Below, one piece after another: positions 13,138 through 18,558 of a stretch of 47,124 bases of DNA. Source of the DNA: Leptolyngbyaceae cyanobacterium C42_A2020_001 (lineage in GTDB: Bacteria > Cyanobacteriota > Cyanobacteriia > Leptolyngbyales > Leptolyngbyaceae); contig JACYLN010000063.1 of assembly GCA_015272515.1 (NCBI GenBank), positions 1 to 47,124 on the forward strand, given 5' to 3'. How positions within the stretch are numbered: position 1 is the first letter of the stretch; each line of letters begins with the position of its first letter. Below the pieces are notes generated by a model that had not been told where the DNA came from, searched no databases, and saw only the letters and a list, made by a program, of their open reading frames with translations. Both the position numbers and the translations under genes were made by a program.

Positions 13138-14163
13138 TTACTGTCCCAATCCCCCATCAATATCCTGATTCATTTCTGCTCCGCCCACTACTCGGTTTCG
13201 TCCTGATGATTTGGCGCGCAGCAGATTCTGGTCGGCGCGGCGTAGTAAGCTCATACCTTTGGGATCATCGCTTGACTCCAGGGTTGCAGTTCCAGCACTG
13301 ATGGTAATGTTCAGTTCTAACCCTTCTTCGATACTGAATGCTTGTTCACTAATTAGACGACACAGCCGACGTGATACCAAAAGGGCTTCGTTTTGATCGG
13401 TGTTGCTCAGAATGATCACAAACTCTTCGCCGCCATAGCGAAACAACGTATCCCGGAAGCGCAAATTGTGTCGTAGACGGCTGGAAACAAGTTGCAGGGC
13501 GCGATCGCCTACGGGATGCCCATAGGTATCGTTGATGCGCTTGAAATAGTCCACATCCAGCATCACCAGGCTTAATGTCTCGGAGCGGTTGCGGGCATTT
13601 TGAAGCTGGCGCGGCAGTTCCCAGTCTAGTGCTCGTCGGTTGTTCAGTTCTGTAAGCGGGTCAGATAAAGCGATCGCAGACAAAATGTCATTTGTTCGCA
13701 TCAGTTCGCGATGGTTTTTGACGGTGCGTAACCCAGCAAAAATCTGCGATCGCAGGAGCCGATCCTGTTTTGCCAGCACTTCTTTTCCCAGTTCCTTACC
13801 ATGTGGGTCATGCCTGGGTAGCCACAGATAAGCATCTGCCCCACCTTCCAGAGCTTCGATTCTAGACTCGACTTCCCAGTCGTATTCTTGCCAAACTTCT
13901 TCGAGCTTTTGGCTGGGAATATCCAACAAAATACAGTAAATCCAAGCGAGCTTTGCCTGATCTTTGAGTTCGCAGCAGAGTTCTAAACCTCCAGGTTGAT
14001 TCCCTTGCAGAATAATCAAGTCAGGTTGTTGTGCCTGGATGAGCGGCACTGCTTCACTGGGGCTATATGCAACCTCAGTTGTACAGTTCACTAAGTTGTG
14101 AATTCGATCCAGAAGTGTTGAGAGAAAGTCATCACCTCCGACCAACAAAATTGAAGCATCCAT
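13138..14163 (-). CDS. Diguanylate cyclase with degenerate receiver domain
   Basis: 341 residues: receiver-like N-terminus (about 1-125), linker, and a GGDEF domain (about 165-330) that would make cyclic di-GMP. The active site is GGEEF (244-248), and RFRD (235-238), five residues before it, is a product-inhibition I-site (RxxD). LDVDYFKRINDTYGHPVGD carries the metal and substrate residues, so catalysis should be intact. The receiver keeps the acidic pair GGDD near residue 10, but the phosphoacceptor Asp is replaced (LIILQGNQPG, Q53) and the conserved Lys is lost (ADAYLWLP); about 15 extra residues intervene. It therefore probably responds to something other than phosphorylation. ATG 14163. 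It is convergent with the saccharopine dehydrogenase-like gene. Confidence 0.92.
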   Translation of the reverse strand: MDASILLVGGDDFLSTLLDRIHNLVNCTTEVAYSPSEAVPLIQAQQPDLIILQGNQPGGLELCCELKDQAKLAWIYCILLDIPSQKLEEVWQEYDWEVESRIEALEGGADAYLWLPRHDPHGKELGKEVLAKQDRLLRSQIFAGLRTVKNHRELMRTNDILSAIALSDPLTELNNRRALDWELPRQLQNARNRSETLSLVMLDVDYFKRINDTYGHPVGDRALQLVSSRLRHNLRFRDTLFRYGGEEFVIILSNTDQNEALLVSRRLCRLISEQAFSIEEGLELNITISAGTATLESSDDPKGMSLLRRADQNLLRAKSSGRNRVVGGAEMNQDIDGGLGQ

Positions 14164-15177
14164 CGACGTTCAGCAGCCCAACCTCAATATTCGGGGCATG
14201 ACTCCAATAAGGTATAAGATTTCTATCGTCGCAGACATATCAAAAAGATCGTGCTAGATAGTTTTTTTTGATTAGAGATTAGTTGGTGGAGGAGCTTTAG
14301 ATAGATTGGCACATCCGTCCCTTCACTAGCTACACACTCTGACGATCCTTTCCAGGAAGATAATCAAGAAGTTAAAAAAGCATAACTCAGCTTGGTGATG
14401 CACTCTCGAAGCTTGCAGTTCTCTGTTGCGATCGCCCGACTTCGACCCAATCAGTTCATTGAAGCTATAGCTAGCTTACAAATTACGTTTTCCCAGTTGC
14501 AAGCAGAAAAAGTTTCCTCTATTTCAGATGAATAACAACACCTCCACGACCACTCAACATAGAGCATTTTCTATCGTAGAGCGCTTATTTTCTACATTAA
14601 GCATACCCAATTGGGTTAGTGGTGAGAGATCGGTTGTATGAAACAACTGCTCATGTCACACTGTAGGCGTTTTATTAAATTCGCATAAACTTTTTCGGAA
14701 AACATGACAGATTTACAGCCACCCGGCAACTCTCTCAGTTTTCTGGGAGTCCAGATCACCCAGTCCCTCGAATTACGGCACAAATTTGTGCTTCTCTATA
14801 CCTCAATTTCTACGGAGGCATATTCATGCTGCTACCATTGACGCGAGTGAAGTGTGAATTTTATCGATCTCGTGTAAACCTTCAGAGATTGGGGCACTCT
14901 ATAAGCAAGGTTGAAATTGGCGCTTGGGGAGTTGGATTTGAATTAACGACCGATCTGAGTTAGCCTAAACCTGCCTCCTGATTCACTCTCAACAATGCAA
15001 TCCTTCTCAAGTAATGTATTAAATCACACGCAGAATTGTTTGGTTACTTAGCATTCTTGATACGAGAGAAACGTTCTCAGGCAAACCTACCAACACCTTG
15101 TCAACGATTCGGTTTAACGTTTTTTGATTGTATTGTCTGCCCCACGTTCATCGTAACCTCACCCCTGTTTGCCGGTA
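14164..15177. other. Long divergent spacer between the two second-messenger cyclases
   Basis: About 1 kb without a convincing gene. Short frames with ATG starts exist at 14398-14535 (45 codons, weak), 14704 (44 codons, weak) and 14826-14963 (listed separately). A near-palindrome GAGAA-ACG-TTCTC lies at 15066-15078, about 100 bases before the nucleotide cyclase. The length suggests regulation, small RNA or decayed DNA. Confidence 0.5.
14826..14963 (+). CDS. Possible small protein, 45 residues
   Basis: An ATG frame preceded by GGAGG with about six bases of spacing encodes MLLPLTRVKCEFYRSRV through GFELTTDLS. The ribosome site is good, but length, composition and lack of recognisable family leave it uncertain. 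Listed because it is the best-supported frame in a 1-kb gap. Confidence 0.25.
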   Translation: MLLPLTRVKCEFYRSRVNLQRLGHSISKVEIGAWGVGFELTTDLS

Positions 15178-17490
15178 ATGCTCCTCATGGATAACGAGAT
15201 GCTGACGTCAGAATTAAAGGGACAACGCACACTCGCCACTGTTGTGTTTACAGACTGTGTGGGGTTTAGTGCCCGGATGTCAGTCAATGAAGAGCATACG
15301 CTCGACTTGATTCGGCGGGATCTGAAGTTAATGAAGAAGGTGTGTGAACGGTTTGAGGGGCGAGTTCTGAAGACGACAGGTGATGGCTTGCTGATGTGTT
15401 TTTCGAGCGCTGTGAAGGCGGTGGAATGCGCGATCGAGATTCAGCGGGAGATCGCGGAAGCGATCACAACCCTGCCCCCCAGTGATGCACTGCTCCATCG
15501 AATCGGAATTCACTTGGCGGATATGTACATCACGGAAACCGATGTCATGGGCAATGGGGTAAACATTGCTGCCCGCCTACAAACCGAAGCTGATCCCGGC
15601 GGGATTTGCATTTCTCAAACCGTTTACGATGTTGCAAAGCACGGGTTGCAACTGGTTACAGAATATCTCGGACCCAGGGATCTGAAGAATATTCGAGAAG
15701 TGGTTCCAGCGTACAAAGTGCTGTTGGATCAGGAAATTTTTGAGAACGATCCTTATCTGGAAGCAGCTCACCATTTAGAACAAAGCCCCAACCTCTCCCG
15801 CATTCGGAAGCTGATGTTCTATGTTTGCAAACATCGCTGGGAAGCGGATGAAACTAAGTTGATGCGGCTACACCTGAGAGGCATTGTTCAAGAATTTCTG
15901 GGAATGGCATCCAGTTATGAACAGTTAAGAGGACTGTTGAACTCTGCGGTTGGTAATTTAAGCAAGCAAGTAGAGTATTCTCTGGTTGCCAACGAAATTT
16001 TGTCAGCGGTTGCCTCCTTCTATATGGGCGATCAGCCCCTCCCAGTTGGGGCATCTGCTCAGCCAGAAAATCCAGCGATCGCTCCAGCAAATTCGTCATC
16101 ATCCACTACGCCAGAACAGCAGCAGCTTTACCGCCAGATTGCCCAGAAGCTTGATCACCACAGCGATGCCTTACGAATCAAGAAACTGCTGTACTACATC
16201 TGCAAACGTACTTGGGCAAGTAATGTTGCTCAACTCAACGGCATTAGTACCGAAAGCTTGGTGCAAACAATCCACGGGCTTGCTCCCGACAGCGAACAGC
16301 TTCGCCAATTGATTGATAAGTTTGTTCAAACACTGAATAAGCGAGCGGAATATTCTCTGGTAGCGGTGACACTTGTTGGGCAAGTTGGGGCACTTTATGG
16401 GGAGTCTTTGTCTGAGGTGAGTACGGCAGTGCCCAATGCAGTCACTTCTAGAATTGCTTTCACTACCCCTGAGGTTGCAACTTCAACACCATCGCACCCG
16501 CCAGAAAGAGCAAACATTTACCACGCGATCGCCGCCCGTTTGGAGCAAGATCCCCAGATTTTACGAATCAAAAAGCTGTTGATTTTCGTGTGTAAATCTC
16601 AGTGGACAAGCGACCCAACCCAGCTCGCCAGTTTTAGTACGGCAATTTTAGTTGAAGAACTGCATACGCTTGCCCCCACGATTGAACAGCTTCAGCAAGC
16701 CCTCAGTGCTCTGGTCAAGAGTTTAAGCAAGCAAGCGGAGTATCACGCGATCGCGAATTTGCTGATTCAAAAACTCCGCCCCTTGTATCAAATTGCATCG
16801 GCATCCCGCCCCGCTACTGCCCAAGCTTACCCGCCTGCGCCCCTTCCTACAGCCAATCCATCGTCTCAACCCAACCAAGATGCGGCTCAAACTGACCCAA
16901 TCGATGCAGGCACAGAATCTCGGTTAGAAGCAGATATTGATAAGCTCAGCCACAGCGATCGCCAACCAATCAATCTATTTGATGTTCGACTTGCCATCCA
17001 AAAATACACAAACCCTCTAAGAGCTAAAATTCTGGCATTTTCTGCCCTTCATTCAGAATTTCACTTTAGTGAACAGGATTGGTTCAACCTGAAGATGTAC
17101 GAGTTAGATGCACTGCTTCGAGGCTTGTTAAAAGCCTGCCGTAGTTACACTGATCTGGAGCATTTGCTCTACTCCACAGCCAGACGACTTAGAGATCCCG
17201 AAGATTTGATTCAGGCGGCTGATACCGTCACAAAATTTCTCCGCATCTTTTATGTACACGGAAGCCCCTCTTTACTAGTTAGCCTTCCCCCAGATGAGAC
17301 TAAGATCAGCTTGGATGATTTTGAGGAAGCAACCCGAGGATTTGCCAACCTGGATGATGAATTTGATCATACGTGTCAATTAGTATCGCCATCGTCGGGA
17401 TTAAATACCATCCTGAATCAACCAACAGATTCAGGCAGTAGCACCTGCCTCCTTCCATCTGCAGAACAAGATCCCGTGTCTGGGGGATAA
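15178..17490 (+). CDS. Class III nucleotide cyclase with four tandem helical modules
   Basis: 770 residues. Residues about 18-183 form a class III adenylate/guanylate cyclase catalytic domain. FTDCVGFSA gives metal-binding D26, KTTGDG gives D69, and GNGVNIAARL gives N129 and transition-state R133, so it should be active; ATP versus GTP use is not certain. The remainder is four copies of a module of about 95 residues (191-285, 314-409, 443-538, 599-692), separated by Pro/Ser/Thr-rich linkers. Copies 1-3 share the pattern LRI(K/R)KL...(V/I)CK..W, an LAP..EQL segment, and L.K.AEY(S)L(V)A; copy 4 is divergent. I do not recognise the module. No membrane segment. The start is uncertain (ATG 15178 or 15187). 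The stop is followed closely by a micro-ORF and the pentapeptide gene. Confidence 0.88.
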   Translation: MLLMDNEMLTSELKGQRTLATVVFTDCVGFSARMSVNEEHTLDLIRRDLKLMKKVCERFEGRVLKTTGDGLLMCFSSAVKAVECAIEIQREIAEAITTLPPSDALLHRIGIHLADMYITETDVMGNGVNIAARLQTEADPGGICISQTVYDVAKHGLQLVTEYLGPRDLKNIREVVPAYKVLLDQEIFENDPYLEAAHHLEQSPNLSRIRKLMFYVCKHRWEADETKLMRLHLRGIVQEFLGMASSYEQLRGLLNSAVGNLSKQVEYSLVANEILSAVASFYMGDQPLPVGASAQPENPAIAPANSSSSTTPEQQQLYRQIAQKLDHHSDALRIKKLLYYICKRTWASNVAQLNGISTESLVQTIHGLAPDSEQLRQLIDKFVQTLNKRAEYSLVAVTLVGQVGALYGESLSEVSTAVPNAVTSRIAFTTPEVATSTPSHPPERANIYHAIAARLEQDPQILRIKKLLIFVCKSQWTSDPTQLASFSTAILVEELHTLAPTIEQLQQALSALVKSLSKQAEYHAIANLLIQKLRPLYQIASASRPATAQAYPPAPLPTANPSSQPNQDAAQTDPIDAGTESRLEADIDKLSHSDRQPINLFDVRLAIQKYTNPLRAKILAFSALHSEFHFSEQDWFNLKMYELDALLRGLLKACRSYTDLEHLLYSTARRLRDPEDLIQAADTVTKFLRIFYVHGSPSLLVSLPPDETKISLDDFEEATRGFANLDDEFDHTCQLVSPSSGLNTILNQPTDSGSSTCLLPSAEQDPVSGG

Positions 17491-17491
17491 C

Positions 17492-17566
17492 GTGCAAAAC
17501 GAAACGGCTTTGTTCGATGCGTCATCTACGCTGGGTTTGCCAGACATTGAAGCTGAACGCCCATGA
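17492..17566 (+). CDS. Possible 24-codon linking ORF
   Basis: GTG 17492 opens a 24-codon frame (VQNETALFDAS..., ending EAERP) whose TGA overlaps the ATG of the pentapeptide gene as ATGA. It begins one base after the cyclase stop. The tight packing suggests translational coupling from the cyclase to the pentapeptide protein. The ribosome site is weak, and the peptide itself has no recognisable function. Confidence 0.25.
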   Translation: MQNETALFDASSTLGLPDIEAERP

Positions 17567-18558
17567 ATGCAAGTGAGTTATTAAAGCGCTACGATGCCGG
17601 GGAGACAGACTTTCAAGGTGAAAATCTGTACGGAATCGATTTAAGTGGTGCTGACCTGATTGGTGTTGATTTCACTGGATGTGATTTGCGAGGTGCCAAT
17701 CTTGTATTGGCATACCTCAACCGCGCAAATTTGAGTCGGGCGAATTTGATGGGAGCACATCTTAGCGGAGCAAACTTGAGTCAGGCAGACCTTCTCTGCG
17801 CCAACCTCCAAGATGCCGATTTGCATGGAGCCATTTTATATGCTGCCGATTTACGCGGGGCAGACATTACCCTGGCAAATTTGCTCGATGCCAACTTGAT
17901 TAGTGCCGATTTGCGGAATGTAAATTTGAGCGGGGCAAATTTACGGGGTGCCTGCCTGCGGGGTGCCAATATGCGCTACGAGAAACGCTGCTATGATGGG
18001 GCGAATTTGCGGGGTGCGGATCTGCGAAATGCGGATTTGCGTGGAGCGAATTTAACTGGGGCAGACCTGGGCAAAGCGGATTTGACGTATGCCAATCTCA
18101 GTGAAGCGAGTCTGCGAGAAGTCAATTTATCGGGGGCCATTCTGGCGGAGGCAGAACTCCGGAGCACCTTTTTGACGGATGCGATCGCGATTGAAGCCAT
18201 TTTCAAACAGGCAACCCTGACCAACGCCAAGTTAGAACGCGCCAATTTAACTGAGGCAGATTTAACTCACTGTGATCTCAGTGATGCCAATTTAACAGCC
18301 GCCACCCTGGCAAAGGTGCGATGCCACCAGGCAAAAATGATGCGATCGCGCTTCAACCGAGCTGATCTAAGCCGCGCAGATTTGCGGGGAGTTGATTTAA
18401 CTGAAACCACCTTTATCGAAGCTTACCTGGGTAGAGCCGACCTCAGAAACGCTAACTTGAAAGACGCAAATCTGGCAAAAGCGGAGTTGAGTAGCGCGAA
18501 TTTAAACGGGGCGAATCTGCAAGGAGCCACTTTGCCCGATGGCACAATCCACGACTAG
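17563..18558 (+). CDS. Pentapeptide-repeat protein
   Basis: 331 residues, almost entirely A(D/N)LxX pentapeptide repeats from about residue 20 to 325 (for example GANLRGADL, SGANLSQADL, LRNADLRGANL), forming a right-handed quadrilateral beta-helix. A short non-repeat interruption at YEKRCYDG (about 143-150) probably makes a loop. The N-terminal ASELLKRYDAGETDFQGENL is a common cap in cyanobacterial members. There is no signal peptide or other domain. The start at ATG 17563 overlaps the preceding micro-ORF, and the gene is co-oriented and only 72 bases from the nucleotide cyclase, so the two are probably one transcript. Functions in this superfamily vary and none can be assigned. Confidence 0.93.
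   Translation: MNASELLKRYDAGETDFQGENLYGIDLSGADLIGVDFTGCDLRGANLVLAYLNRANLSRANLMGAHLSGANLSQADLLCANLQDADLHGAILYAADLRGADITLANLLDANLISADLRNVNLSGANLRGACLRGANMRYEKRCYDGANLRGADLRNADLRGANLTGADLGKADLTYANLSEASLREVNLSGAILAEAELRSTFLTDAIAIEAIFKQATLTNAKLERANLTEADLTHCDLSDANLTAATLAKVRCHQAKMMRSRFNRADLSRADLRGVDLTETTFIEAYLGRADLRNANLKDANLAKAELSSANLNGANLQGATLPDGTIHD

Follow-up and report, generated by a model that had tools for sequence, protein, structure and literature searches.

The whole stretch of DNA analyzed here (47,124 nucleotides from Leptolyngbyaceae cyanobacterium C42_A2020_001, referred to below as the window) encodes a protein in which three typical copies and one terminal copy of a helical module, followed by an acidic tail, lie behind a putative nucleotide cyclase, and its gene forms a conserved two-gene unit with that of a pentapeptide-repeat protein. 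Because the module was often found without a cyclase, and usually beside a pentapeptide gene, it appears to be the core of a two-gene system and not an accessory of the enzyme. We give about even chances to the view that the module represents an undescribed domain family acting as a scaffold that works together with the pentapeptide-repeat protein, the cyclase being an optional output.

A Nucleotide Cyclase Followed by an Array of Modules

A 773-aa open reading frame (ORF) was found at 15169..17490 of the window (+), opening with a TTG codon at 15169. Alignment with 17 orthologous fusion proteins suggests that an ATG at 15187 is the true start, and the gene counted from this likely start (15187..17490, +) comprises the cyclase, three modules, the terminal module, and the tail. 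Residues 23-169 (15235..15675, +) form a class III nucleotide cyclase catalytic domain, supported by the fusion alignment, 3mr7, and a match to PF00211 (43 bits versus a cut-off of 21.9), which was the sole Pfam match to reach its cut-off in the protein. The closest PDB relatives of this head were 3mr7 (sequence match, E = 1e-25), the Rv1900c CHD, and Ma1120. A Foldseek search with the full-length model also matched 3mr7 and Ma1120, and the best 50 of 495 matches at E <= 10 were all cyclases.

The residues D29 and D72, N132 and R136, and K68 and D125, which we take to be the metal aspartates, the transition-state pair, and the substrate-specifying residues, respectively, were unchanged across the 18 aligned fusion proteins. 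This invariance agrees with the claim of an earlier, sequence-only reading that the cyclase keeps both metal aspartates and the transition-state pair, and the core of the window protein looks intact. Moreover, K68 and D125 align with Lys and Asp in Ma1120, pointing to ATP as the probable substrate of the head. The same reading had regarded the N-terminal position of the cyclase as the reverse of the usual order. However, members of this cyclase subfamily were also N-terminal in module-less proteins, 51-65% identical in seven cases, where they preceded nSTAND1-WD40, TIR-AAA_35, NACHT, a kinase (two cases), or no further Pfam domain (two cases); an N-terminal cyclase is thus usual for the subfamily. 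At loci L115-L122, from related cyanobacteria, the subfamily reads as a promiscuous N-terminal cyclase cassette.

Four modules were located behind the cyclase: module 1, a six-helix domain (residues 198-285; 15760..16023, +), module 2 (residues 323-410; 16135..16398, +), module 3 (residues 453-540; 16525..16788, +), and the divergent, terminal module 4 (residues 605-695; 16981..17253, +). All four were supported by HMM and AF2 helices, modules 1 and 2 also by the search of the class, and module 4 also by profile-profile comparison. Copies 1-3 were identical to each other at 31/88, 33/86, and 38/87 positions (35-44%), with pairwise z values of 29.1, 34.3, and 32.9, and each of these scores was reached in 0/500 shuffles. 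Plain alignment did not relate copy 4 to them (z = 5.1 with copy 1, and -0.8 and 0.5 with the other two), nor was it found by an HMM built from copies 1-3 of the window protein. In profile-profile comparison, on the other hand, 44 typical modules of related proteins matched 19 terminal ones with a probability of 97.9% (E = 4.6e-13), rising to 98.7% (E = 2.8e-16) with larger sets of 80 and 40 rows. A model of the non-terminal modules also detected the terminal module in several genomes, with E = 3.5e-4 in the own genome and 7.3e-11 in another. On this profile evidence, the window protein contains four modules, the last of which is a separate conserved subtype.

The repeated helical module proposed from the sequence alone is thus real, and the copy boundaries then given lay within 1-4 residues of the AlphaFold helices. 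Two details of that description had to be narrowed. The motif LAP..EQL, assigned to copies 1-3, does not hold for copy 1, which reads MASSYEQL, and "four-fold" applies to the window protein but not to the family. Among 85 complete ORFs, four modules were counted in 22, three in 41, two in 21, and one in 1.

Predicted Fold and Relation to Described Domain Families

Structure prediction, which had been put forward as a check on the module, gave a confident six-helix module. Module 3 alone, modeled by AlphaFold with 80 aligned modules, reached a mean pLDDT of 91.4 and a pTM of 0.82, and contained six helices and zero strands, the small, non-enzymatic, and mostly all-helical character described for effector-associated domains (EADs). 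In the full-length model, based on the 18 aligned fusions, the same six-helix order was seen in residues 195-284, 315-410, 445-539, and 603-696, and the linkers between modules were mostly below a pLDDT of 50. The full-length pTM of 0.32 means that no arrangement of these beads is predicted, and they appear as beads on flexible linkers.

Comparison of a single module with the PDB gave 0/117 Foldseek matches at E <= 0.001 and a best VIA-align Z of 4.3. The weak rows obtained with the two programs included a few pyrin/death-fold proteins and globins at background level (pyrin E 1.8-5.2). These nulls are uninformative, and a missing fold match is no proof of a novel fold. The module profile searched against PDB sequences gave a designed helical protein as its best match (E = 0.02).

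A match of the module to a described Pfam domain would have argued against a new family, and no such match reached the cut-off among the proteins that we scanned. When the 19 proteins in the module alignment were compared with Pfam at full length, no module region exceeded any cut-off, and residues 190-700 of the window protein gave no Pfam or NCBIfam row over the cut-off. The nearest Pfam family was DUF2742, which on an isolated module of L006 (L063 is the same gene) obtained 22.3 bits and so fell 0.4 bits short of its cut-off of 22.7; it scored 18.4 bits on the whole L006 protein and was absent from the other 43/44 modules at E <= 1. The best Pfam E values were 1.8e-4 among 44 modules and 0.012 among 40 terminal modules, and at E <= 1 no family occurred in more than 3/44 or 2/40 of them, respectively. 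With NCBIfam, the best E value among 80 modules was 0.0018, in one member, and no family was matched by more than two. No PADLOC rows were obtained for the head-less protein of L066 or for the pentapeptide-repeat protein, and those of the window protein and of L085 fell on the heads only. PHROGs gave no match for the window protein or head-less L066, and a plasmid tblastn search gave no match. Together with the predicted fold, these comparisons suggest that the module is a domain of ~90 residues and six helices belonging to an undescribed family.

Distribution of the Module and of Its N-Terminal Heads

The module-profile search detected the module in 274/388 genomes of the class and in 227/334 of those of good quality. 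The repeat region was also found by protein search in 50/58 relatives, and in a phylum-wide draw 35/117 genomes matched, all 35 of them from the same class. Carriers include Myxacorys, Phormidesmis priestleyi, Kaiparowitsia, Chlorogloea purpurea, and Synechocystis salina. The family is usually represented by one locus per genome; protein and profile searches found one in the window's own genome, and two were present in a few genomes (G042, G044, G055, and G056).

A total of 138 module ORFs were collected, of which 90 were distinct and 85 complete, five being left out because they were cut by contig or locus ends. The head of each was assigned by motif search and by the length preceding the first module, which gave 55 ORFs without a head, 28 with a cyclase, and 2 with a kinase. 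The cyclase-module gene at L016:336-2718 (genome G007) is spread over two reading frames, through a frameshift or a sequencing error. It accounts for two of the 85 ORFs, and the set therefore corresponds to 84 genes: 54 without a head, 28 with an N-terminal cyclase, and 2 with a Ser/Thr kinase, numbers which are not population frequencies, the loci having been picked by best match, family spread, or ORF size. The cyclase was thus absent from 56/84 module genes. The kinase-headed loci are L085 and L098 (family code f23), and the kinase was confirmed by Pfam on L085. The check proposed with the earlier reading, whether other cyanobacterial proteins carry the module without a cyclase, thus had a positive outcome, both through stand-alone proteins and through Ser/Thr kinase fusions.

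At L135:2775-4514, one of the 28 fused cyclases lacks the first metal aspartate, which is replaced by Gln, and no pentapeptide gene adjoins this gene. Five loci (L071, L099, L080, L083, and L084) encode ~135-295 residues beyond the terminal module; the extensions of L071 and L099 show an apparent internal repeat, and L071 had no Pfam match.

A Pentapeptide-Repeat Protein Is Encoded Next to the Module Gene

The gene located 72 bp downstream of the module gene (17563..18558, +) encodes a pentapeptide-repeat protein of 331 aa, which was analyzed by Pfam, neighborhoods, and co-distribution. It matched Pfam Pentapeptide PF00805 with 273.9 bits, against a cut-off of 20.2 (E = 1.8e-83). In 35/41 neighborhoods (40 further loci and the window), a pentapeptide gene, in one case cut by a contig end, directly followed the module gene in the same orientation, at a distance of -38 to 141 bp. 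The exceptions were L076, L084, L085, L086, where the partner lies upstream, L098, which meets a contig end, and L099. In 20 further loci, 18 had a pentapeptide gene downstream at 0 to 191 bp, L135 and L137 being the exceptions. When all complete genes with enough room were considered and the frame-split L016 was counted once, the pentapeptide gene was directly downstream in 72/81, and 47 of these 72 module genes were head-less. The nine genes without a partner directly downstream were those of L020/L085, L076, L084, L086, L099, L106, L135, L137, and L154. The module genes of L106, from Synechocystis salina, and of the L154 genome have no adjoining partner, and the second module genes of G042 and G055 likewise lack a pentapeptide gene beside them.

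No other neighbor gene cluster recurred in more than 7/41 loci. A gene upstream, on the opposite strand, that by eye encodes a response regulator with GGDEF (window 13138-14163, -) belongs to a cluster found at 4/41 loci and is thus considered to be outside the pair.

The two genes were also co-distributed: among 58 genomes, both were found in 49, neither in 7, and only 2 were discordant (Fisher p = 2.1e-7, uncorrected for relatedness). The two discordant cases are contig ends: in G003 the contig stops inside module 2, and in G034 a truncated terminal module lies just upstream of the pentapeptide gene. In G012, scored as having neither gene, a fragment of the pentapeptide gene lies where a contig begins. 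An orthologue of the pentapeptide protein was found in 50/58 genomes, 49 of them at E = 2e-72 or better and one as a contig-cut fragment at 1.6e-65; the threshold (E <= 1.6e-65) was set at a gap in the list, the next-best pentapeptide match being at 2.6e-55. By coordinates, 49/52 pentapeptide rows were directly downstream of a module gene, and 50 after inspection of G034. Three of the next-best relatives were read as candidates for SpkB-like kinase-pentapeptide proteins, but this idea was dropped: each turned out to be a pentapeptide protein whose C-terminal region was either different or missing.

When the cyclase label was followed on a tree built from 37 of the pentapeptide partners, the best tree required at least four changes, and the strongly supported branches force only one.

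A gene for an AAA ATPase, presumably Ycf46-like, was noticed near the module gene of Synechocystis salina (L106:2804-6215) and near the pentapeptide fragment of G012 (L127:107-2887). From gene order, we take slr0377 to be the Synechocystis 6803 orthologue. In open-licence PMC, slr0377 appeared in no title or abstract start on slr0374/slr0376/slr0377, and no paper on the module/pentapeptide pair was recognized by title or abstract start among the matches listed.

A Recurrent Motif in the C-Terminal Tail

Within the acidic tail of the window protein, the motif D-H-T-C-Q-L (residues 733-738; 17365..17382, +) drew attention by its recurrence in other tails. T/S-C-Q-[FLIV] was present in the tails of 34/84 complete module genes, of which 17 are head-less, 15 cyclase-headed, and 2 kinase-headed; these tails belong to related rows, and thus do not represent 34 independent events. 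In shuffled tails, the same pattern occurred with a mean of 0.185 and a maximum of 4 in 1000 rounds. A search of the own genome for DNA matching the coding pattern gave 5 matches (1 + 1 for the control), and only 17365..17382 fell in an ORF of more than 63 codons. The motif was also carried by the minimal member of the 84, a protein of 241 aa encoded at L154. It was absent from 50/84 genes and therefore cannot be essential everywhere.

A Proposed Scaffold and Its Alternatives

The pairing of the module gene with the pentapeptide gene was observed directly in the genomes, and the mechanism that we propose for it is conditional. The array would serve as a scaffold for protein interactions and, through its modules and tail, may bind the pentapeptide-repeat protein and/or a shared cellular partner, and the N-terminal domain would be an exchangeable output head. 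As K68 and D125 lead us to judge the head an adenylate cyclase in the window's lineage, the scaffold would there localize or gate cAMP production; elsewhere, a Ser/Thr kinase may serve as the head, or the scaffold and the pentapeptide protein may act head-less. The occurrence of cyclase-headed, kinase-headed, and head-less versions, mostly beside the same partner, would make it possible to study what the scaffold does apart from its enzymatic output in ordinary laboratory strains. A more specific form of this proposal, which we hold only tentatively, is a widely conserved cyanobacterial assembly of two proteins, in which the tandem domain copies and their T-C-Q tail join a dedicated pentapeptide protein in a scaffold whose main role is independent of any enzyme, and onto which different lineages place second-messenger or kinase heads.

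The sequence-only reading had seen the modules as arms of the cyclase. In its stronger form, in which the modules are sensors that switch an N-terminal adenylate cyclase and the head-less forms are decayed or secondary, this explanation appears unlikely. It would fit the invariance of the catalytic residues in 18 fusions, the intact-looking fusions in seven families of the class (f1, f6, f7, f8, f10, f13, and f17), and the pentapeptide tree, in which the strongly supported branches are compatible with one fusion origin; 24 fusion ORFs also adjoin a pentapeptide gene. However, 54/84 module genes have no catalytic head, and 47 of these 54 keep the pentapeptide neighbor; it is with the pentapeptide-repeat gene that the association is conserved. 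In addition, the cyclase of L135 has lost its first metal aspartate, kinase-headed versions exist, and on the best tree the cyclase label changes four times or more.

Common operon and co-occurrence can mean nothing beyond one shared pathway. It is even conceivable that the two proteins are kept together for expression only and serve unrelated processes, as the genomes in which the pair is split or missing might indicate. We find this improbable: in many families of the class the two genes have stayed together amid changing neighbors, and they were present or absent jointly across 58 genomes.

The module might also serve as an adaptor in a conflict or defense system, where, as an effector-associated or death-like domain, it would bring in enzymes through homotypic contacts. 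The small all-helical domain behind swapping cyclase or kinase heads agrees with this, and so do the TIR-AAA_35, NACHT, and nSTAND1-WD40 proteins headed by members of the same cyclase subfamily. Furthermore, the kinase head of L085 (7312-9612, -) strongly matched PADLOC PD-T4-6 (best E 1.7e-96), which may mean no more than a Ser/Thr kinase, the window cyclase matched PADLOC PycC (best E 6.9e-8), and pyrin domains were among the weak Foldseek matches. Nevertheless, these PADLOC rows concerned only the kinase and cyclase heads, with none on the pentapeptide protein or on head-less L066, the Foldseek rows were not significant, and the neighbor is constant across families. EADs are, according to PMC7159879, present in several copies per genome, as opposed to the one locus of the own genome. 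We thus consider an adaptor of this type to be quite doubtful. It is highly improbable that the module is a known TPR, HEAT, or other solenoid repeat in very divergent form, or a version of another described domain that has diverged to this degree: the all-helical prediction, a sub-threshold match to TPR_ZFYVE26 (14.4 bits versus 27), and the near-threshold DUF2742 score on one module would agree with it, but the six-helix modules are parted by low-confidence linkers and not stacked, no TPR/HEAT-type match was obtained at the cut-off, and no Pfam family recurred among the modules beyond the few cases given above.

If the scaffold proposal is true, the module would establish a new domain family and open a way to study a gene whose module was detected in about two-thirds of the sampled good-quality genomes of the class. 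It would also provide a testable partner for a pentapeptide-repeat protein; to our knowledge, most proteins of this type are without a known role.

Comparison with Known Systems

The cyclases 3mr7, Ma1120, and Rv1900c CHD resemble the N-terminal 170 residues of the window protein in fold, metal aspartates, the Asn/Arg pair, and the Lys/Asp pair, but they are uninformative on the four modules, and 56/84 module genes have no cyclase. For Pycsar and the other PADLOC defense systems, the cyclase and effector models were not both matched in the four proteins scanned.

EADs, according to PMC7159879, are found on core components as well as on effectors, with several copies in a genome. As described there, they share with the modules a small size, a mostly all-helical and non-enzymatic nature, and fusion to signaling enzymes. 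The modules differ from them by their single locus in the own genome, where the several copies per genome typical of EADs were not found, by their tandem copies within one protein, and by the constant pentapeptide neighbor. None of the Pfam EADs was matched at the cut-off, and one of 40 terminal modules had an E value of 0.08 to EAD11.

The cyanobacterial Ser/Thr kinases with added domains presented in PMC2176072 are comparable through the kinase that heads the array in L085 and L098. Pentapeptide is named as an added kinase domain in the section of that paper considered here, which does not describe the module itself. Finally, the partner is by its sequence a standard member of the pentapeptide-repeat proteins (PF00805), but is set apart from other proteins of this family as a distinct orthologue group of ~331 aa.
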